DNA of 64,000 bases from Sanguibacter suarezii NBRC 16159 (GTDB taxonomy: Bacteria > Actinomycetota > Actinomycetes > Actinomycetales > Cellulomonadaceae): NCBI RefSeq assembly GCF_001552735.1, contig NZ_BCRT01000008.1:124001-188000 (forward strand), read 5' to 3'. Of the stretch, positions 43,179 to 54,753 are shown in pieces (positions within the stretch are counted from its first letter, which is position 1; each line of letters begins with the position of its first letter). Position numbers and translations under genes: made by a program. The notes beneath the pieces were generated by a model that was not told the origin of the DNA, did not search any database, and saw only the letters and a list, made by a program, of their open reading frames with translations.

Positions 43179-43262
43179 ATGCGGTTCATGTTCGCCGTCG
43201 TGCTGGTGGTCATCGCTGCGGGGCTGACCTTCTGCATCCTCATCGGGGTGATGCACCGATGA
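43179..43262 (+). CDS. 27-aa single-pass membrane peptide
   Basis: MRFMFAVVLVVIAAGLTFCILIGVMHR: charged ends around one hydrophobic helix. GGGAGG ends 5 bases before the ATG, and the TGA overlaps the next ATG (ATGA), which supports real translation. It starts right after the lipoprotein stop. Function unknown; probably a partner of the flanking membrane proteins. Confidence 0.6.
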   Translation: MRFMFAVVLVVIAAGLTFCILIGVMHR

Positions 43263-43951
43263 GCGCCGCCAGTGCGGTCAGGAGGGCCCTCGCCCGCAAT
43301 GGGCTGGGGCTGGTCTTCCTCGGGCTCTTCGGCGCAGCGCTGCTGGGCCAGGCGATCACGGGCATGCTGCGCTACAACGAGGAGGCCGCCGCCGAGCAGA
43401 TGCCGTCCCTGAGCTTTGGCCAGTACGTGACGTCTTCCCAGTTCGCGGTGGACGTCGCGGAGAACTGGCAGTCGGAGTACCTGCAGTTCTTCCTCTTCAT
43501 CGTCCTCACCGTGTGGCTCATCCAGGTGGGTTCCCCGGAGTCCAAGGAGCTGGGGCGTGCCGGTCGAGAGTCAGACGAGCAGCAGAAGGTCGGGGAGTAC
43601 GCACAGCCTGACTCGCCCGCGTGGGCGCGGGCGGGCGGTTGGCGCCTGGCGGTCTACGCCCGCTCGCTCGGGCTGACGATGGGGCTGATCTTCCTGCTGT
43701 CATGGACGGCTCAGCTGGTCGCCGGCAGGGCTGCGCTCAACACCGAGCGGCTCCAACAGCTCCAGGCCCCGCTCGGTTGGGCGGACTACGCCGTCTCGCC
43801 CGACTTCTGGAACCGGACGCTGCAGAACTGGCAGTCGGAGTTCCTCGCTGTGGCCAGCATGGTGGTGCTCGCGATCTACCTGCGCGAACGGGGGTCTCCC
43901 GAGTCCAAGCCTGTCGGGGACCCGCACACGACCACGGCCAGCGAGGGGTGA
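43259..43951 (+). CDS. DUF6766-like membrane protein with internal duplication
   Basis: 230 aa, four membrane segments in two similar halves. Each half has one helix, a periplasmic stretch ending NWQSEYLQFFLF or NWQSEFLAVASM, a second helix and a GSPESK turn. The halves are separated by a charged cytoplasmic linker. The repeat is seen directly; the family name is recalled and not certain. Function unknown. Confidence 0.65.
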   Translation: MSAASAVRRALARNGLGLVFLGLFGAALLGQAITGMLRYNEEAAAEQMPSLSFGQYVTSSQFAVDVAENWQSEYLQFFLFIVLTVWLIQVGSPESKELGRAGRESDEQQKVGEYAQPDSPAWARAGGWRLAVYARSLGLTMGLIFLLSWTAQLVAGRAALNTERLQQLQAPLGWADYAVSPDFWNRTLQNWQSEFLAVASMVVLAIYLRERGSPESKPVGDPHTTTASEG

Positions 43952-44191: not shown

Positions 44192-44491
44192 TCAGATCTC
44201 GTGCGTCCCGGCGTTGGGAGCAGGTCGCGCGGAGCTCTCGCCGGAGTCCCCGGAGTCACGCGACGTGGCCGAGCGCACGGCCTCGGTGACCTTCTCCTTG
44301 ATCGCACTGCCCTGCTCCTTGGCGACCTCAGCGGCCTTGTCCTGGACCGTGGAGACCGTCGACTGCACGGACGGGCTGTTCCACACGCCAGCCGCGTGGG
44401 ACTTGATCGACTCGAACTGGCGCCGTCCGGCGCGAGTGCCCAAGACGTAACCGATGCCGGCTCCGACGACGAATGCTGCCTTCGACTTCAT
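44192..44491 (-). CDS. YtxH-like small membrane-associated protein
   Basis: 99 aa. N-terminal helix AAFVVGAGIGYVLGTRAGRRQFE followed by an amphipathic helix and a Ser/Asp/Ala-rich tail, as in YtxH-like proteins linked to envelope stress. AGGAG lies before the ATG. The 240 bases to the DUF6766 gene and the 282 bases to the next gene show no convincing CDS. Confidence 0.65.
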   Translation of the reverse strand: MKSKAAFVVGAGIGYVLGTRAGRRQFESIKSHAAGVWNSPSVQSTVSTVQDKAAEVAKEQGSAIKEKVTEAVRSATSRDSGDSGESSARPAPNAGTHEI

Positions 44492-44773
44492 GTGCGCTCC
44501 TAGGTCGTGGTCACGGGAGGTCGGGGGCTGCCGCGCAGGTCAGGCCTGCGCGGCCGGCGCTCCGATGCCTTTGAGCGTACGTGCCCGGACGTGCGTCCGC
44601 AGCCCGCACAGGGACTGGGTGTATCGAGTCAAGTGTCGTGGTCCAACCCGTCTGACCCGGGTTGCGCCGACAGGTCCGTTGTCGACGGGCGATGGCTCAC
44701 GCCGTCCCTTAGGGTCGGCGATCAGCAGCGATCGCCCAGCGGCGATGCAGGTCAGGGCCTTGAAGGAGGACGT

Positions 44774-45922
44774 GTGACATCCGTGTACGACGAGTTCCAG
44801 CACAGCACCCTGCTCGACCGGCTCCCCCCGCCGCCAGCGAGCGAGGAGAACCTGGACCGGGTGCTCGAGTGGATGGTCGGGGTGGGGCGGGTGGCGCCGG
44901 TGGCGGGCAGCGGCCAGACCGAGGCGCTGTGGGACCTGCTGGCAGGCACCGCCGCCCAGGACGTCACGACCGCGCGGGTACTAGAGCCTCACCTGGATGC
45001 TCTCGCCATCCTCGCCCAGGTGCCCGACGGCGTGGACCTGGGCGCAGTGGGCGCGGGCGCAGACAGCACATGGGGAGTCTTCGCCGCCGAAGGCCCCGGC
45101 GTGCGGCTGTCCGCACGTGAGGAAGCCGGCCGGTGGCGCCTCGACGGCACCAAACCGTGGTGCTCCCTCGCCCAGCAGCTCAGCCACGCCCTGGTGACGG
45201 CCTGGACCCCGGACGGCCGTCGTCTGTTCGCCGTCGACCTGCGCGCGGACGGAGTTCAGCCGGAGCCCGGCCCGTGGGTTGCGCGGGGCCTGCGTCAGGT
45301 GATCAGTGCTCCGGTGCAGTTCGAGGACGTGACCGCCGTGCCCGTGGGTCCGACCGGCTGGTACCTCACCCGCCCGGGCTTCGCCTGGGGCGGGATCGGC
45401 GTGGCGGCGTGCTGGTGGGGCGGGGCGCTCGGGGTGGGGCGGGAGATGCTCGCTGCCGCCCGCGAGCGGGAGAACGACCAGATCGGGTTGGCGCACCTCG
45501 GTGCGGTCGACGCCGCCCTGTGGTCGGCTCGAGCGGTCTTGCGCGAGGCGGCCGCGCTCGTCGACGACCCGCCGTCGTGGCTCGCCCCCTCGATCCTCGC
45601 CCGGCGCTGCCGCCAGGTCGCGGCGCGCTGCGTCGAGGAGGTGCTCGAGAGGTCCGCGCACGCCCGCGGACCGGCGCCGCTCGCCCTCGACGAGACCCAC
45701 GCGCGCAGGACAGCCGACCTCGCTCTCTACGTCCGTCAGCACCACGCCGAGCGGGACGACGCCTCCCTCGGCCGCGACCTGCTGGCCCGCGCGGAGCGCC
45801 TCGGCGAGGTGGACGCGGGGATCGACGACGTCGAGACGCGTTCTCCCTTCGTGGGAACCCTGGGCGTGCCGGCATTGCTGCGCTCGGCGGACCTGCTCCC
45901 GGTCGGTGGTCCGTCATGGTGA
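44774..45922 (+). CDS. Acyl-CoA dehydrogenase-like flavoprotein
   Basis: 382 aa. Middle-domain motif WRLDGTKPWCSLAQQLSHALVTAW resembles the FAD-contacting GxKxW(C/I)(S/T) of acyl-CoA dehydrogenases, and FAWGGIGVAACWWGGALGVGREML matches the start of the C-terminal helical domain. The catalytic Glu of classical enzymes cannot be placed. It may act on a sugar- or carrier-linked substrate rather than acyl-CoA. GTG start with AAGGAGGA at 44763-44770. It overlaps the next gene and heads a three-gene operon. Confidence 0.7.
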   Translation: MTSVYDEFQHSTLLDRLPPPPASEENLDRVLEWMVGVGRVAPVAGSGQTEALWDLLAGTAAQDVTTARVLEPHLDALAILAQVPDGVDLGAVGAGADSTWGVFAAEGPGVRLSAREEAGRWRLDGTKPWCSLAQQLSHALVTAWTPDGRRLFAVDLRADGVQPEPGPWVARGLRQVISAPVQFEDVTAVPVGPTGWYLTRPGFAWGGIGVAACWWGGALGVGREMLAAARERENDQIGLAHLGAVDAALWSARAVLREAAALVDDPPSWLAPSILARRCRQVAARCVEEVLERSAHARGPAPLALDETHARRTADLALYVRQHHAERDDASLGRDLLARAERLGEVDAGIDDVETRSPFVGTLGVPALLRSADLLPVGGPSW

Positions 45923-47301
45923 CCTTCAACCACCTCGACGCCGGCACCAGCGAAGACGTCTGGCGCCAGTCCGACGTCACGGGCAACCTGCCGCTGCTCG
46001 ACGACCAGGCGATCGACGCGCTGCTCGTCGTGGCAGCCCACCCTGACGACGAGTCGCTCGGGGCCGCGGGGCTGGTCGCGCGCTGCGCGGCACGCGGGAT
46101 CCCCGTCTCGGTGCTCGTCCTCACCGATGGTGAGGGCTCGCACCCGGACTCCCCGACCTGGAGCTCGACCGCCCTGGCGACCGTGCGCCGGGCCGAGCTG
46201 GTGACGGCGGTCGGCGAGGTGGCCCCACGCGCGGGAGTTCGCTTCCTCGGCCTGACCGACGGTGGGCTGCGTGAGCAGGCCGACGTCGTGCGGCGAGAGA
46301 TCGAGCGCATGATCGACACCTCTCTGCACCCGACGATCGCCGCGCCGTGGAGCGGGGACGGACACCGTGATCACCGCATCGCGGGCCAGTGCGCCCGGGA
46401 TGTCGCCGAGCGACTAGGGCTCGACCTCGTGGAGTATCCCGTCTGGTTCTGGCACTGGGGGCGCCTCGACGGCGACGAGCTTCCTTGGGGGCGGGCGCGA
46501 CAGCTCCGCCTGACCGACCAGGAGCAGCAGATGAAGGCACGCGCCCTCGCTGCCCACACGACCCAGACCGCCCCGCTCTCCGCGGCTGACGGGGACGAGG
46601 CGATGCTCAGCCCGCAGATGCTCGCCCACTTCCAGCGCGACTGGGAGACCTTCGTCGTCACTCCCGCCCCAGCTCCGGCCCCCGTGGGCGAGGGCGAGGG
46701 CGCCGCGTCGTTGGGGGAGGCGTTCTTCGACGACTTCTACGACGGACGCGCCGACCCGTGGGGCTTCCAAACCCGCTGGTACGAGGAGCGCAAGCGTGCG
46801 ATCACGCTGGCGGCGCTGCCCCGTGCCCGGTTCGCGGCGGGCCTCGAGGTCGGCTGCTCGACCGGCGTCCTGACCGCCGAGCTGGCCGAGCGGTGCGACC
46901 GGCTGCTCGGGATCGACATCGCCGCCGCCCCGCTCGAGGCGGCCCGCGCCCGAGCTCCGCGCTCGGTGACCTTCGAGCAGATGGCCACACCCGCGCGCTG
47001 GCCCGCGGGGAGCTTCGACCTCGTCGTGCTCTCCGAGGTGGGCTACTACTGCTCGGCGCAGGACCTGGATCTCATGATCACCCAGGCCATCGGCTCCCTC
47101 ACCCCCGACGGCGTCCTGCTCGCCTGCCACTGGCGTCACCCGGTCGCGGAGTACCCGCTCGGCGGGGACGTGGTCCACGCCATCATCGCGGCCCGTCCCG
47201 AGCTTGCCCGGACCGTGCGCCACGAGGAGGAGGACTTCCTGCTCGAGGTGTTCACCCGCCCGCCGGGCCGGTCGGTCGCGACCGAGACGGGGCTGAGATG
47301 A
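45916..47301 (+). CDS. PIG-L deacetylase / SAM methyltransferase fusion
   Basis: 461 aa in two parts. Residues about 35-235: PIG-L (LmbE-like) zinc deacetylase, AHPDDES at 41-47 (H42, D44, D45) and GDGHRDH with H150 and H153. Residues about 268-455: class I methyltransferase of NodS type, FYDGRADPWGFQTRWYEERK then SAM loop EVGCSTG at 311-317 and LVVLSEVGYYCS. Such an enzyme could N-deacetylate a sugar or lipid and then N-methylate the exposed amine. An alternative start is GTG at 45919 (GTGA overlap). The ACAD and GT2 genes overlap it on both sides. Confidence 0.88.
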   Translation: MVTFNHLDAGTSEDVWRQSDVTGNLPLLDDQAIDALLVVAAHPDDESLGAAGLVARCAARGIPVSVLVLTDGEGSHPDSPTWSSTALATVRRAELVTAVGEVAPRAGVRFLGLTDGGLREQADVVRREIERMIDTSLHPTIAAPWSGDGHRDHRIAGQCARDVAERLGLDLVEYPVWFWHWGRLDGDELPWGRARQLRLTDQEQQMKARALAAHTTQTAPLSAADGDEAMLSPQMLAHFQRDWETFVVTPAPAPAPVGEGEGAASLGEAFFDDFYDGRADPWGFQTRWYEERKRAITLAALPRARFAAGLEVGCSTGVLTAELAERCDRLLGIDIAAAPLEAARARAPRSVTFEQMATPARWPAGSFDLVVLSEVGYYCSAQDLDLMITQAIGSLTPDGVLLACHWRHPVAEYPLGGDVVHAIIAARPELARTVRHEEEDFLLEVFTRPPGRSVATETGLR

Positions 47302-48089
47302 CCACCTGCGGTGCGCAGGCGCAGAGGGGTGCAGGTGCTGGCCACGGATCGAGCGCCGGTGCCGGGGCGGTCGATGCGGTCGTCGTCGTCGTGCCGGTGC
47401 ATGACGAGGAGGAGCTGCTCCCGCGCTGTCTGGAGGCCCTCGACGCGGCGCGCCGGGCGCTCGCCCGCGACGTGCAGCCTGCTCCGGCGGTGGCCGTCGT
47501 CGTCGTGCTCGACGCGTGCAGCGATGCCTCCGAGCGGGTGGTCCGCGGCCATCCGGTGACGCTGCTGCGGACCGAGCACGCGTGCGTCGGCGCGGCCCGG
47601 GCGGCGGGGGTCGAGGAAGCGTTGGAGCTGGTGCGCCCGGTGGTCGCTGGCCTGGACCGGGTGTGGGTCGCGAGCACCGACGCCGACTCCGCAGTCCCGG
47701 AGAACTGGCTGGTGGAGCAGGTCCGCCTGGCGGGGCAGGGCGCCGACCTCATGATCGGCACGGTCCGTCCTGATCCCCGCGACCTCACCCCGGCCCAACG
47801 TGCCGCGTGGACGGCCACGCACACCCCCGGCATCGCCAACGGTCACGTTCATGGGGCGAACCTCGGCATCCGGGGGAGCGTCTACCGTGCCGCCGGCGGG
47901 TATGCCCCAGCCCCCGAGCACGAGGACGTGCTGCTCGTCGAGAGCGCTCGCCGGGCCGGGGCGCGGGTGGTGGCGAGCGACGTGTGCTGGGTGCTGACCT
48001 CGGGCCGACCGGTCGGGCGCACCCCCGGAGGCTACGCCCGCTACCTGCGGGAGGACCTGGTCTCCAGCGGCGCCCCCGGACAGACGTGA
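47298..48089 (+). CDS. GT2-family glycosyltransferase
   Basis: 263 aa. GT-A fold: VVVVVPVHDEEELLPRCLEAL, VVVLDACSDAS, and VWVASTDADSAVPENWL with the DxD metal motif, then ANGHVHGANLGIRGSVYRAAGGY. A low-complexity N-terminus of about 25 residues precedes the domain. Start ATG overlaps the previous stop (ATGA). No membrane helix. Transfers an unknown sugar, probably to the product of the two upstream enzymes. Confidence 0.85.
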   Translation: MTTCGAQAQRGAGAGHGSSAGAGAVDAVVVVVPVHDEEELLPRCLEALDAARRALARDVQPAPAVAVVVVLDACSDASERVVRGHPVTLLRTEHACVGAARAAGVEEALELVRPVVAGLDRVWVASTDADSAVPENWLVEQVRLAGQGADLMIGTVRPDPRDLTPAQRAAWTATHTPGIANGHVHGANLGIRGSVYRAAGGYAPAPEHEDVLLVESARRAGARVVASDVCWVLTSGRPVGRTPGGYARYLREDLVSSGAPGQT

Positions 48090-50068: not shown

Positions 50069-52144
50069 TCAGCTTTCCTGGATGACTGCTACGGCGCCGG
50101 GGGCGATGGTGAGGTCGCCGGTCGCGGTGGAGCCGGTGAGCAGGTCGAGGCCGGAGGCCTTGACGCTCGCCTCGGCGTCGGTGTGGTTGAGGACGAAGAG
50201 GAAGCTCGCACCGTCGGCGCCGTGGCGGCGCACCACCTCGACGCCGGCGGGCGCCTCGATCTCACCGGTCACCCCGGCGTCGGCCAGCACGGCCTCCACG
50301 AGCGCGGCGGTGCCGGCCTCCTCGAAGCGGGTCGCGGAGTACCAGGCGGAACCGGAGCCGACGGCGTTGCGGGTGACAGCCGGCAGCCCGGCGAGGGCGC
50401 CGTCGTCGTGCACCGCGACGGCCTGTGCGCCGGTCAGGTGTGTCTTCTCCGTCCACAGGTCCGCGCTGTAGGTGCCGGCCAGCGGGCCGCCGCCCGAGAC
50501 CGTCACGGTCTCGGTCGCCTGCAGGGTGTAGAACTCCTCGGTGCGCACGCCCAGCAGGTCGCGGAAGGCCCCCGGGTAGCCGCCCAGGCGCACGTGGTCC
50601 TCGGGGGTGACGATCCCGGAGAAGTACGTGACGAGCACCGTCCCCCCGCGCTCGGCCACAGCCGCGACGTTGGCCGCGTCTGCATCGCTGACCAGGTACA
50701 ACGTGGGCACGATGACAAGGTCGTAGCCGCTGAGGTCCGCCCCCGGGTGCACGACGTCGGTGCTCACCCCGCGCAGCCACAGCTGCTTGTACAGCGCCTG
50801 GGCCTGGTCGAGGTAGCGCAGCTCCTGGGTGGGGTGGGAGTCGAGCTCGCTCGCCCACCACGCCTCGTAGTCGAAGACCATCGCCACGCGTGAGCGCACC
50901 GTGGAGCCCTGGACCGGGGCGAGGTCGCGCAGCGCCTGACCTAGAGCGACGGTGTTGGCCCACACGTCCGAGTCGCGCCCGGCGTGCGGGACCATCGCGG
51001 AGTGGAACTTCTCCGCACCGGCCGCGGACTGGCGCCACTGGAAGAACATCACCGAGTCCGCCCCGCGAGCCACGTGCGCGAGGGAGTTGCGCAGCATCTC
51101 ACCGGGTGCCTTGGTGCGGTTGCGCGGCTGCCAGTTGACCGCGGACGTGGAGTGCTCCATGAGGATCCACGGTCGCCCGCCGCCGATGCCGCGGGTGAGG
51201 TCAGCCGAGAAGGCCAGCTCGATGTGGCGGTCGTCGTTGTCCGCGCCGGTGTAGTGGTCGTTGGAGATGACGTCGAGCTCGGCGGCCCAGTCGAAGTAGT
51301 CCATGCCCTTGGTGCCGGTGGACGCCATGAAGTTCGTCGTGATCGGCACGTCCGGGGTGATGGCGCGCAGCGTGTCACGCAGGTCCTGGTAGTAGCCGAG
51401 CAGAGCGCGCGAGCTGAACCGGTCGAAGTCCAGCTGCTGGGTGGGGTTGGCGTAGGTGGGGGCGGTGCGCGGGGGGAGGATGTCCTCGAAGGCGCTGTAC
51501 CGCTGGGACCAGAACGCCGTGCCCCAGGCCTCGTTGAGGGCGTCGATCGAGCCGTAGCGCTCGGCGAGCCAGGAGCGGAAGGCGGAGGCGGCGGCGTCGG
51601 AGTAGTCGCGCGGGACGTGGCAGCCGATCTCGTTGTCCACGTGCCACAGCGCGAGGGCCGGGTGGTCCTTGTAGCGCTCGGCCATGACGGTGGCCATGGT
51701 CAGCGCGTACTGGCGGAACACCGGGTGGGTCACCGCGTAGGACTGTCGTCCGCCCTGGCCCAGCACGGTCCCGTCGGCGAGCTGGGGCAGGATCTCGGGG
51801 TGGCGCGCGGTGAGCCACGGCGGCGGGCTCGCGGTCGCGGTGGCCAGGGCCACGCGGATGCCTGCGGCGTGCAGCCGGTCCATCATCTCGTCGAGCCAGC
51901 CGAACTCGTACTGGCCCTCGTCGGGCTCGAGGGTGGCCCAGGCGAAGATCGCCACCGAGACGATGTTCACCCCGGCCTCGATCATCATCTCGACGTCCTC
52001 GAGACGGGTGGCCTGGGGCCACTGCTCGGGGTTGTAGTCGCCGCCGTAGCCCAGGCCGGTCAGGCCGGTGGGCCACCCGGCGACGCCGCCGAGGGGGGTG
52101 CTGGACACAGGGGTGGCAGAGGGGTTCGCATCAGTGAGAGCCAT
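50069..52144 (-). CDS. GH42 family beta-galactosidase
   Basis: 691 aa from ATG 52144. N-terminal TIM barrel with acid/base E172 in WHVDNEIG and nucleophile E330 in ILMEHSTSAVNW; then the trimerisation domain (VAMVFDYEAWWASEL, LSGYDLVIVPTLYLV) and a C-terminal beta-domain. Cytoplasmic retaining enzyme acting on beta-galactosides or arabinogalacto-oligosaccharides. No ribosome site precedes 52144; the LacI operator lies 4-17 bases upstream, so a leaderless start or an upstream TTG (52180) are both possible. It lies just downstream of the LacI gene. Confidence 0.9.
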   Translation of the reverse strand: MALTDANPSATPVSSTPLGGVAGWPTGLTGLGYGGDYNPEQWPQATRLEDVEMMIEAGVNIVSVAIFAWATLEPDEGQYEFGWLDEMMDRLHAAGIRVALATATASPPPWLTARHPEILPQLADGTVLGQGGRQSYAVTHPVFRQYALTMATVMAERYKDHPALALWHVDNEIGCHVPRDYSDAAASAFRSWLAERYGSIDALNEAWGTAFWSQRYSAFEDILPPRTAPTYANPTQQLDFDRFSSRALLGYYQDLRDTLRAITPDVPITTNFMASTGTKGMDYFDWAAELDVISNDHYTGADNDDRHIELAFSADLTRGIGGGRPWILMEHSTSAVNWQPRNRTKAPGEMLRNSLAHVARGADSVMFFQWRQSAAGAEKFHSAMVPHAGRDSDVWANTVALGQALRDLAPVQGSTVRSRVAMVFDYEAWWASELDSHPTQELRYLDQAQALYKQLWLRGVSTDVVHPGADLSGYDLVIVPTLYLVSDADAANVAAVAERGGTVLVTYFSGIVTPEDHVRLGGYPGAFRDLLGVRTEEFYTLQATETVTVSGGGPLAGTYSADLWTEKTHLTGAQAVAVHDDGALAGLPAVTRNAVGSGSAWYSATRFEEAGTAALVEAVLADAGVTGEIEAPAGVEVVRRHGADGASFLFVLNHTDAEASVKASGLDLLTGSTATGDLTIAPGAVAVIQES

Positions 52145-52147
52145 GCC

Positions 52148-52161
52148 GGCAAGCGTATTCC
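52148..52161. promoter_or_regulatory. LacI-type operator 4 (GGAAnnCGnTTnCC)
   Basis: Minus-strand reading GGAATACGCTTGCC, between the LacI stop and the GH42 ATG. Fourth member of the set at 27790, 27844 and 42200. Confidence 0.6.
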
Positions 52162-52195
52162 AGCCCTGTGGGAAACCCAAGCGACCGCTGGTGGC

Positions 52196-53251
52196 TCAGT
52201 CCCGCCGGGGCGTGGAGTCGCGGACGATGACCTCGCCGTCCACCGGCACGACGCGCGGCTCGGGCTTGGCCGGAGACAGCGCCAGCTCGGTGACCAAGGA
52301 GCCGATGTCCGCGAGCGGCAGCCGGATGGTGGTCAGCGACGGGGTGATGTCTCGCAGGGTGATGATGTCGTCGAAGCCCGCGATCCCGACGTCGTCGGGC
52401 ACGGTCACGCCCGCGGTCCTGGCGGCGGCCATGGCGCCGACAGCCATGACGTCGTTGACCGCGAACACCGCGTCGACGTGGCCGTCACGGGCTCCGCCGG
52501 GGCGCACCCGGCCGCGCGACAGGAGCTCTTGCATGCCCTCGAAGCCGCCGTCGCGGGTGAAGGCGCAGTGCACCACGTCCTCGTCGGCGATGCTCACGCC
52601 GTGGGCGGCGAGCCCGTCCCGGAACCCGGTCAGGCGCGCGCGGGCGGTGAGGTGCCCCTCGGGGCCGGCGAGGATCGCGAAGCGCCGGTAGCCGAGCGCG
52701 TGCAGGCGGCTCGCGAGCTCGCTCGTGCTCGCCTCGTTCTCGATGGTCACGGTGTCCACCCCGAGCAGCGCCTGGCCGATCACCGCGGCGCCACCTCCGC
52801 GCGAGCGGTACTCGGCGAGGGCCTCGGTGAGTGCGGCGTTGGCCTCGGCGTCGTCGGAGCGCCCACCGGCGACGATGATCGCGCGGGCGCGCTGACGCTG
52901 CATGAGGTCGACGAAGGCGAGCTCGCGCTCGGGGTCACGATCGGTGCTGGCCAGGGTGACCACCAGCCCGGCACGCTCGGCGGCGGCGGTCACCCCCGAC
53001 GCGATGGTCGAGAAGTACGGGTCGGCGATGTCGTGGACGATGAGGCCGAGGGCCGTCGTCCGTCCGCGCGCCATGGCCTGAGCGTTGGCGTCGGGGGAGT
53101 ACTTGAGCCGCTGCGCGGCAGCGAGCACCTTCTCGCGCAGCTCGGGACGCACGGTGCGGTTCGCGCTGCCGTTGATCGCTCGGCTGGCAGTCGCCAGGGA
53201 CACGCCGGCCTCGCGTGCGACATCGCTCAGGGTGACGGTCATACGGGACAT
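52196..53251 (-). CDS. LacI-family regulator of the GH42/sugar-oxidation regulon
   Basis: 351 aa. HTH VTLSDVAREAGVSLATASRAINGSANRTV, hinge LKYSPDANAQAMARGRTTALG, sensor domain with GLIVHDIADPYFSTIASGV, IIVAGGRSDD, VDAVFAVNDVMAVGAMAAAR and VGIAGFDDIITLRDITPSLTTIRLPL. The extended operators GGAAnnCGnTTnCC are typical LacI-type half-site palindromes. Start ATG at 53251 (or 53242); TAAGAT abuts 53251, possibly a leaderless start. Likely represses the downstream GH42 gene and three other units. Confidence 0.88.
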   Translation of the reverse strand: MSRMTVTLSDVAREAGVSLATASRAINGSANRTVRPELREKVLAAAQRLKYSPDANAQAMARGRTTALGLIVHDIADPYFSTIASGVTAAAERAGLVVTLASTDRDPERELAFVDLMQRQRARAIIVAGGRSDDAEANAALTEALAEYRSRGGGAAVIGQALLGVDTVTIENEASTSELASRLHALGYRRFAILAGPEGHLTARARLTGFRDGLAAHGVSIADEDVVHCAFTRDGGFEGMQELLSRGRVRPGGARDGHVDAVFAVNDVMAVGAMAAARTAGVTVPDDVGIAGFDDIITLRDITPSLTTIRLPLADIGSLVTELALSPAKPEPRVVPVDGEVIVRDSTPRRD

Positions 53252-53272
53252 CTTAGGGCCGTCACCTGGGGA

Positions 53273-53316
53273 CCCGCTCCGCCGCCGGTGCGCAGCCCGC
53301 CGAGCGGCGGAGCGGG
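53273..53316 (-). terminator. Terminator after nhaA
   Basis: 13-bp perfect stem cccgctccgccgc/gcggcggagcggg with an 18-nt loop, 40 bases past the nhaA stop on the minus strand. Confidence 0.6.
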
Positions 53317-53355
53317 CGAGGTCTGCACCGCGGCCGTGCGGTGGTCACGCGGCGT

Positions 53356-54609
53356 TCACGCGGTGGTCGGCACCTCCCCGGAGCGCTGCTCGCGGGCCCG
53401 TACGGCGCTGCGCCAGCTGAGCAGCGCACCGCCCGCCGCCGCGGAGGTGAGGGACCCGAGGAGCACCGCGGCCTTGACCGCCTCGCTGGTCACGGTGCCC
53501 GGGTCGAAGGACAGCTCGCCGATGAGCAGCGAGACCGTGAACCCGACACCGCCCACGCAGGCCACCGCGACGACGTCGAGCCAGCGCAGCGAGGCGTCCA
53601 GGGCTGCGCCGGTGAAGGTCACCAGCAGCCAGGTGGCCAGCACGATGCCGACCGGCTTGCCGAGCACCAGGCCAAAGAACACGCCCTGCGCGGCCGGGTT
53701 GGAGGCGGCGTCGGCCAGCGCGGAGGGGGTCATCGCGACGCCGGCCGCGAAGAGGGCGAAGACCGGCACCGCGAAGCCGGCCGAGAGCGGGCGCCAGGCG
53801 TGCTCGTAGCGCTCGGCCAGCGACGTGGCCTCCCCGCCGCGGGCGAGGGCAGGCACCGTGAGCCCGAGGGCGACGCCGGCGATCGTCGCGTGGACCCCGG
53901 AGGCGTGCATGAACGCCCACGCCAGCACCCCGAGCGGGATGAGCAGCCACGGGGAGGCGCCACCGCGGCGGCGCACCAGCACGGCGAACAGGCCGATCGC
54001 CACGAAGGCCGCGAGCATCCACACGAAGCTCAGACCGTTGGCGTAGAAGACGGCGATGACGATGATCCCGAGCAGGTCGTCCACCACCGCGAGGGTGAGC
54101 AGGAAGGCACGCAGAGCCGTCGGCAGGCCCTTGCCGAAGATGGTGAGCACGGCCACCGCGAAGGCGATGTCTGTGGCGACCGGCACGGCCCAGCCGTTGG
54201 GGTCCCCGGCCGAGCTCAGGGTGTTGATCACCGAGTAGACGACCGCAGGGACGGCCATGCCGCCGACCGCGGCCAGGATCGGCACGATCGCCGTCGCCGG
54301 GCGGCGCAGCTCGCCGTCGACGATCTCGCGCTTGAGCTCGATCCCGACGACGAAGAAGAAGATCGCCAGCAGGCCGTCCGTGGCCCACTGGGCGACCGTG
54401 AGGTCCAGATGCAGGGCTGAGGGCCCGAAGGTGAGGCTGCTCAGGGCGCGGTAGCTCTCGCCGAAGGGCGAGTTGGCCCAGATCAGCGCGATGACCGCGC
54501 CTGAGAGCAGCAGGATCGCGCCGGTGTTCTCGGCGCGCAGGGTGTCGGCGAAGTTGCGCCGCCCGCCGGGGGTCATCGTCCCCAGGAGGGTCTTCGGAGG
54601 AGTGCTCAT
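53356..54609 (-). CDS. nhaA: Na+/H+ antiporter NhaA
   Basis: 417 aa, 12 membrane segments. The ion-binding Asp pair D177-D178 in LLTLAVVDDLLGIIVIAV and the TDIAF motif at 146-150 (unwound helix) match NhaA; GFTVSLLIGELSF is in helix XI. Exports Na+ for 2 H+ at alkaline pH. Start ATG at 54609 with AAGGA 5 bases upstream; ATG 54612 touches the ribosome site. Monocistronic with its own terminator. Confidence 0.92.
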   Translation of the reverse strand: MSTPPKTLLGTMTPGGRRNFADTLRAENTGAILLLSGAVIALIWANSPFGESYRALSSLTFGPSALHLDLTVAQWATDGLLAIFFFVVGIELKREIVDGELRRPATAIVPILAAVGGMAVPAVVYSVINTLSSAGDPNGWAVPVATDIAFAVAVLTIFGKGLPTALRAFLLTLAVVDDLLGIIVIAVFYANGLSFVWMLAAFVAIGLFAVLVRRRGGASPWLLIPLGVLAWAFMHASGVHATIAGVALGLTVPALARGGEATSLAERYEHAWRPLSAGFAVPVFALFAAGVAMTPSALADAASNPAAQGVFFGLVLGKPVGIVLATWLLVTFTGAALDASLRWLDVVAVACVGGVGFTVSLLIGELSFDPGTVTSEAVKAAVLLGSLTSAAAGGALLSWRSAVRAREQRSGEVPTTA

Positions 54610-54753
54610 CATCGTCCTTGAGGTGTGATCGGCGTCTGCCCGCTCGTCGTCGAGGGGCTCGCCGGTCGTCACGATAGCCCACCTCGCGGGGCCTGGATCC
54701 GGGCCTTCTGGCATGGTTGCGAGGGCTCCGGAGGTGGTATCACGCGCGGGTTG

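Follow-up and report, generated by a model that had tools for sequence, protein, structure and literature searches.

A conserved cassette of an acyl-CoA-dehydrogenase-fold flavoprotein, a PIG-L/NodS-like fusion and a GT2 glycosyltransferase, with a putative role in the synthesis of an N-methylated amino-sugar glycoside

The 64,000-nucleotide stretch of Sanguibacter suarezii NBRC 16159 analysed here (contig NZ_BCRT01000008.1, positions 124,001 to 188,000; hereafter the window) carries a cassette of three genes on the plus strand, each overlapping the next, whose open reading frames are real. The first gene (44774..45922, 382 residues, GTG start) encodes a flavoprotein with the acyl-CoA dehydrogenase (ACAD) fold in which a Gln replaces the classic catalytic Glu, and it is preceded by a Shine-Dalgarno-like AAGGAGG read from the sequence (44763..44769, +). 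The second one (45916..47301, 461 residues, ATG start) is a fusion of a PIG-L deacetylase and a NodS-like S-adenosylmethionine (SAM) methyltransferase: the PIG-L domain (PF02585) spans residues 37-163 (46024..46404, +) with the motifs AHPDDE and DGHRDH, and the NodS-like domain residues 279-407 (46750..47136, +) with the motifs DPW..WYE..K and E-GCSTG. The third (47298..48089, 263 residues, ATG start) encodes a soluble, single-domain family 2 glycosyltransferase (GT2) of GT-A fold. The flavoprotein and fusion genes share the 7 nucleotides ATGGTGA (45916..45922, +), inside which lies the ATG of the fusion, and the fusion and GT2 genes share the 4 nucleotides ATGA (47298..47301, +), so that both junctions are probably translationally coupled. 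The Kyte-Doolittle mean over 19 residues peaks at 1.6 across all three proteins, none of which has a strongly hydrophobic segment, and scans of the locus found no consensus promoter, terminator or RNA family. An earlier note, made from the letters of this DNA alone, had described an overlapping operon of an ACAD-like protein, a PIG-L/NodS fusion and a GT2 enzyme, in agreement with both the gene models and Pfam.

The three genes form a conserved unit that extends past the actinobacteria, which supports the earlier note: it had named a lack of such conservation as one refutation of its proposal. Of 58 other genomes searched, 14 matched the fusion at E 1e-50 or better (G003 in two pieces), and in 11 of these 14 (L008-L018) the ACAD and GT2 genes were each found at 10 loci, the exceptions being L014 for GT2 and, for ACAD, L017, whose stretch stops right before the fusion on its upstream side. 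A larger set, found by the methyltransferase domain only and in named genomes, holds the best 80 of at least 558 places and therefore leans to close relatives. In this set PIG-L lies beside the methyltransferase at 80/80 loci, ACAD is present at 78 (missing from L075 and L104) and GT2 at 74 (missing from L059, L075, L086, L088, L092 and L104), with the ACAD gene of L063 and L088 cut by the end of the locus. The gene order is ACAD-PIGL-MT-GT2 (MT, methyltransferase) at 74 loci, ACAD-PIGL-MT at 4 and PIGL-MT at 2. The PIG-L and methyltransferase parts are fused at 64 loci and split at 16, and the fusion is therefore a feature of lineages and not the essence of the cassette.

A search with ACAD only led to the same unit. 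It gave 33 new Pseudomonadota loci, of which 32 were compared (L138, mostly N, was dropped) with 40 control regions from other parts of 20 of these genomes, so that the controls are Pseudomonadota only. The profiles used here, as for the 80-locus, plasmid and actinobacterial loci, were built from the window and from loci among L004-L024, which match by construction. The methyltransferase was matched at 31/32 loci (all except L146), PIG-L at 28/32 (not at L123, L131, L135 and L139) and GT2 at 26/32 (not at L121, L125, L133, L135, L139 and L146), in comparison with 0/40 control regions for each; moreover, L131 has a diverged PIG-L gene past GT2, and L139 another GT2 gene in the run. At 15 named plasmid loci, 6 of which had been used in building the profiles, these detected ACAD in 15, the methyltransferase in 15, PIG-L in 14 and GT2 in 13. 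When 32 loci, about one per genus, were compared together with the window, no flank family other than the cassette and its antisense shadows recurred at more than 7 of the 33 loci, and the cassette therefore stands alone. Between loci, the distances measured for the ACAD, PIG-L and methyltransferase domains correlate pairwise with r 0.79-0.84. This covers 131 of 144 loci, the other 13 having been left out because not every one of the three domains exceeded 60 bits. Shared species history inflates the value; for between-phylum pairs only, r is 0.32-0.57.

Using ACAD as the marker and accepting matches of E 1e-25 or better, we obtained a single match per genome in 50 of the 396 sampled Actinomycetota genomes, the source genome included, and in 34 of 398 sampled Pseudomonadota genomes. 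The distribution is patchy even within the genus, where 3 of 5 other genomes have the cassette, and plasmids of Deinococcus and Nostoc are among the carriers. When the domains were joined, a quick tree, with local support only, fell into two clades: in the first, one set of Pseudomonadota accompanies the Actinomycetota, and the second holds Pseudomonadota together with Deinococcus and Nostoc. On a plasmid of Deinococcus wulumuqiensis (L112, 4484-5836) a TnpB-family gene lies on the opposite strand between the ACAD and PIG-L genes.

The deacetylase part of the window fusion scores 86.2 bits with Pfam PIG-L (cut-off 28.2), and H42, P43, D44, D45 and E46 together with D152 and H153 are invariant across 11 aligned fusions, that of the window included; the HPDD and the downstream His are metal-site motifs of such deacetylases. 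Among the NCBIfam deacetylase models the best scores were with BshB2 and BshB1, and the curated cut-offs were missed by BshB2 (50.3 vs 195 bits), MshB (33.7 vs 224 bits) and Mca (33.1 vs 277 bits). A mycothiol or bacillithiol deacetylase was rejected because of these scores, far under the cut-offs, and because mycothiol genes are located elsewhere in the source genome (Mca at L001 and an MshB-like protein at L002, with 200 vs 224 bits). The strongest hint that the PIG-L step is the de-N-acetylation of a sugar comes from the three Rubrobacter-type loci of family f34 that were examined (L111/L204, L205 and L206, L204 being probably the same replicon as L111). Here a polysaccharide deacetylase of carbohydrate esterase family 4 (CE4), another de-N-acetylase fold, replaces PIG-L beside the same partners, and for the CE4 enzyme of L111, the one locus tested, the top NCBIfam match was NodB (113 bits vs a cut-off of 240). 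Such a replacement supports a de-N-acetylation step. A second PIG-L gene is found right 3' of several Pseudomonas or Pseudomonas-like cassettes (L084:9328-10131, and also L080, L086, L088, L118, L119, L124 and L125). The source genome also encodes, at L003:1177-2292 (G000:C13:157146-157487, minus), a response-regulator receiver (REC) domain fused to a PIG-L deacetylase, with matches to many REC families at residues about 18-150 and a BshB1-like match at 149-317.

The methyltransferase part scores 41.7 bits with Pfam NodS (cut-off 24). Its best NCBIfam match is the NodS equivalog NF041650, at 52 bits vs a curated cut-off of 300, and its best PDB matches are 4isc, a structure from P. syringae, and NodS itself (3ofj). 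In the fusion, neither the metal-site motif of the deacetylase nor the SAM-site motif is disrupted. The sole PADLOC match of the locus was that of the methyltransferase part with mad2, at 45 bits, and a reading as anti-phage defence was set aside.

Concerning the glycosyltransferase, the window protein scores 43 bits with Pfam Glycos_transf_2 (cut-off 23.3) and its AlphaFold model, with a mean pLDDT of 91.3, shows a single GT-A domain. The DxD, GANLG and ED motifs are kept in the family, and D128 and D130 of TDADS are invariant in 37 members. A PDB profile search with the family was led by the ArnC-type polyprenyl-phosphate sugar transferases, and the top fold matches include the polysaccharide-acting enzymes WrtF, TarS and TarP. 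A glucosylglycerate-type synthase was considered and rejected: glucosyl-3-phosphoglycerate synthase matched 13/37 members, the window protein not among them, and many GT2 families give similar scores.

For the flavoprotein of the window the only Pfam match was Acyl-CoA_dh_M, at 27.9 bits and thus under the cut-off of 33.3, and the Pfam C-terminal ACAD domain was detected in 8/39 cassette members. Its AlphaFold model (mean pLDDT 88.1) gave, among the 50 fold matches listed, Z-scores of 30-32 to true dehydrogenases, with root-mean-square deviations of 2.6-3.8 over 315-337 aligned residues, and the matches also include KijD3 and DnmZ. In the PDB profile search the flavin monooxygenase TdsC came first, with DszC and MsuC within the top eight. 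We aligned 52 cassette ACADs with 10 ordinary ACADs from the genomes of relatives, the latter chosen by Pfam match and not by motif, and looked at the C-terminal loop and helix-G positions, the catalytic Glu sites of acyl-CoA dehydrogenases. The Glu of the ordinary proteins occupies the C-terminal EG loop in 8 and helix G in the remaining 2, whereas neither site is Glu in any of the 52 cassette proteins (0/52): the C-terminal-loop site is Gln in 52/52, and at the helix-G site 51 carry Gly and L111 carries Asp. Judged from these residues, a Gln for the catalytic Glu would suit a redox reaction whose substrate is of a different type. A beta-oxidation partner was set aside, since the catalytic Glu is replaced and the one PF00441 match of the source genome lies elsewhere; the electron transfer flavoprotein (ETF), found in 53/59 genomes, the source genome included, does not discriminate for that very reason. 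A nitrososynthase identity was likewise set aside, as the fold does not separate it from the dehydrogenases. At L135:7390-8820, directly 5' of the cassette ACAD, lies a gene for a second ACAD-fold protein with an Acyl-CoA_dh_2 (group D type) domain, whose C-terminal motif differs from that of the cassette protein. In the Rubrobacter-type loci L111, L205 and L206 a further flavoprotein is added between the methyltransferase and GT2 (Pyr_redox_2 in L111), and it is a possible candidate for the electron donor of the ACAD.

A trehalose or alpha-glucan gene lies in the fetched stretch of 9/32 ACAD-found Pseudomonadota loci, in comparison with 2/40 controls (p 0.008). In Comamonas antarctica the cassette is found inside a trehalose operon with the order otsA-ACAD-PIGL-MT-GT2-otsB, mostly with short overlaps, and in Legionella lytica the order is otsB-GH65-PIGL-MT-GT2-ACAD. 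Furthermore, otsA adjoins ACAD in L114 and L130, OtsB/GH65-like and OtsA-like genes lie near the cassettes of L198 and L200, and L139 has a gene similar to sucrose-phosphate synthase in the same run. A glgX-type gene adjoins ACAD in the Pseudomonas loci L084 and L093 and in L118, L119, L124 and L125, four loci that group with Pseudomonas in the tree, and treY- and malQ-type genes lie upstream in L084, L118, L119, L124 and L125. All three types (glgX, treY and malQ) are present at 6 of the 7 Pseudomonas loci of the 80-locus set, the seventh, L088, being a locus cut short. The accessible portion of a paper on P. aeruginosa (PMC3591346) lists the operon without cassette genes. As for stress functions, catalase is encoded near 4/32 Pseudomonadota loci vs 1/40 controls, and also near 3 of 20 actinobacterial loci (20 of the 50 Actinomycetota ACAD matches), and Ku/LigD near 3/32 Pseudomonadota loci vs 1/40 controls.

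Altogether, one pathway is the simplest account of the cassette, because its four enzymes stay together, and an N-methyl amino sugar is suggested by the combination of a glycosyltransferase, a NodS-like methyltransferase and a sugar de-N-acetylase for which either of two folds can serve. The chemistry put forward in the earlier note, that of an N-methylated amino sugar, is a plausible proposal. In the order we propose, GT2 would move an N-acetylhexosamine from a nucleotide sugar onto an acceptor. PIG-L, or the NodB-like CE4 enzyme in Rubrobacter-type loci, would then strip the N-acetyl group, as suggested by the metal-site motifs and the enzyme replacement, and the NodS-like domain, to go by its closest named family, would methylate the freed amine using SAM. 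The ACAD-fold flavoprotein may use its flavin to oxidise or hydroxylate either the amino sugar or the aglycone. A small cytosolic glycoside is favoured by the solubility of the enzymes and by the solute operons among their neighbours. Our preferred reading is therefore that of a stand-alone, patchily distributed cassette that putatively makes a small cytosolic N-methylated amino-sugar glycoside for abiotic stress, to which we would give a probability of about 0.45, slightly under an even chance. A bolder form of it appears rather doubtful: that the product is an N-methyl and possibly flavin-hydroxylated amino-sugar glycoside, perhaps a modified disaccharide similar to trehalose, which a widespread pathway supplies for protection against stress in Actinomycetota, Pseudomonadota, Deinococcota and Cyanobacteriota, the sugar tailoring of the NodB/NodS type being either an offshoot of this general stress route or convergent with it, and the reaction of the flavoprotein on a sugar being new to its fold family.

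Several observations weigh against this preferred reading. The trehalose/alpha-glucan linkage is recurrent but concerns a minority of loci, mainly Pseudomonadota, and is rare among actinobacterial loci; four of the 9 linked loci, near relatives that group with Pseudomonas, are moreover not independent. Tested separately against the controls, the counts are 3/32 vs 0/40 for OtsA (p 0.08), 2/32 vs 0/40 for OtsB (p 0.19) and 6/32 vs 2/40 for GlgX/Tre (p 0.07), and for the stress genes of these Pseudomonadota loci p is 0.12 (KatE) and 0.23 (Ku/LigD). Around the 73 non-Pseudomonas loci of the 80-locus set, OtsA, OtsB, TreY, MalQ and Ku/LigD were found at none (0/73), GlgX-like proteins at 4 and catalase at 2. 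Because of these counts, the linkage to stress and sugar protectants is seen in several lineages yet is rare in the relatives of the window. In the window itself the flanks of the cassette are DUF6766, oxidoreductases and a GH42 locus. The cassette is not always complete, since by profiles L123 is without PIG-L, L135 and L139 are without PIG-L and GT2, and L146 is without the methyltransferase and GT2. On the side of the enzymes, the scores of the GT2 family, by fold and by profile, single out no donor or acceptor; the likeness to NodS and NodB falls far under the equivalog cut-offs; by fold the cassette ACAD ties true dehydrogenases and monooxygenases; and the Glu/Gln result depends on the alignment, a single wrong-frame reference being enough to bring other residues into that column.

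An unlikely alternative is the modification of an envelope glycolipid or glycan, in which GT2 would act on a lipid or polymer, PIG-L and the methyltransferase would tailor the amine and the ACAD would act on the lipid. PIG-L proper acts on a glycolipid, and the ArnC-type enzymes that head the profile matches of GT2, as well as WrtF, TarS and TarP among its fold matches, fit this scheme. It agrees less with three proteins whose hydropathy reaches a maximum of 1.6, with no strongly hydrophobic segment, and with an ACAD devoid of the acyl-CoA base; nor did a family of flippases or polymerases stand out in the recurrent flank clusters, which were not individually annotated. In another alternative the ACAD would be a conventional acyl-CoA or acyl-ACP dehydrogenase desaturating an acyl chain of the product, as its Z-scores of 30-32 to true dehydrogenases and the ETF pair in the genome would allow; this we hold to be very improbable, given that all 52 cassette proteins have Gln at the C-terminal site and Gly, or once Asp, at the helix site, that all 10 ordinary ACADs have Glu at one of these sites, and that the Pfam C-terminal domain was detected in only 8/39 members.

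We give equally little credit to a new low-molecular-weight redox metabolite built with the logic of mycothiol and bacillithiol, a glycosyl transfer followed by PIG-L, and then N-methylated, even if BshB2 and BshB1 are the best deacetylase models of the PIG-L part and catalase is found among the neighbours. Mca and an MshB-like gene are already encoded at other places of the source genome, and no widely recurring flank family offers a ligase candidate, in a search that was not aimed at ligases. N-methyl-bacillithiol does exist, but NmbA is reported to methylate the nitrogen of the cysteine and not the sugar, and the analogy was set aside on this account. Finally, the genes could have different substrates and travel together as a general-stress island under one regulon, which the mixed neighbours (catalase, Ku/LigD, DUF421, CsbD and otsAB) would suit. 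We consider such an island quite improbable, as wide recurrence from genus to genus is confined to the cassette genes, and islands shuffle while the cassette hardly does, with one gene order at 74/80 loci and PIG-L fused to the methyltransferase at 64/80.

The comparison with known systems shows where the cassette resembles earlier paradigms. In Nod factor synthesis NodC is a GT2 enzyme, NodB removes an N-acetyl group from a chitooligosaccharide and NodS methylates the amine, the same logic as that of the cassette, whose methyltransferase has NodS as its best NCBIfam match and whose CE4 enzyme in the Rubrobacter-type locus L111 is closest to NodB. The two differ in several respects: the window deacetylase is a PIG-L and not a CE4 enzyme, which occurs only in Rubrobacter-type loci; the cassette GT2 is a soluble protein of 263 residues and not a membrane chitin synthase such as NodC; there is an extra ACAD flavoprotein; the NodS and NodB cut-offs are far off; and no rhizobium is among the sources of the 80-locus set, which was drawn from named genomes and holds the top 80 of at least 558 places. 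Since the deacetylase fold, GT2 and the scores differ, the cassette is not a Nod system. Mycothiol and bacillithiol synthesis share with it the de-N-acetylation by PIG-L of a GlcNAc-glycoside, but their glycosyltransferase belongs to GT4 and that of the cassette to GT2, the MshB and BshB2 scores given above are far under the cut-offs, and no extra neighbour family recurs widely. The flavoprotein has the fold of the ACAD-like flavin monooxygenases (DszC/TdsC and MsuC, TdsC being the top profile match) and nitrososynthases (KijD3, DnmZ and ORF36), although the fold alone does not separate its match to them from that to true dehydrogenases. In several lineages the cassette adjoins or sits inside compatible-solute operons for trehalose (OtsA/OtsB, TreYZ-GlgX) or sucrose, but none of its enzymes is known from trehalose or sucrose metabolism, and the majority of the cassettes examined lie away from such genes.

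As to the other genes around the cassette in the window, a DUF6766 protein is encoded shortly 5' of it (43259-43951, +, 324 bits), and DUF6766 is also found near the cassettes of L132 and L097. Between that gene and the cassette lies one for a small protein that is YtxH-like by eye, with no Pfam match (44195-44491, -). On the minus strand, positions 50069-54714 encode a GH42 beta-galactosidase, a LacI-type regulator and an NhaA-type antiporter.

The earlier note knew of no characterised pathway with these three genes together, and none was found in the open-access full-text literature, nor was any description of the pathway or its product, in a corpus that mostly leaves out subscription papers. 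As far as this literature shows, the cassette is probably an undescribed amino-sugar tailoring pathway, and each of its four domains comes from a family amenable to expression and assay. Should the product protect against stress, a metabolite of common bacteria of the environment, made with the help of a flavoenzyme, would have been overlooked.

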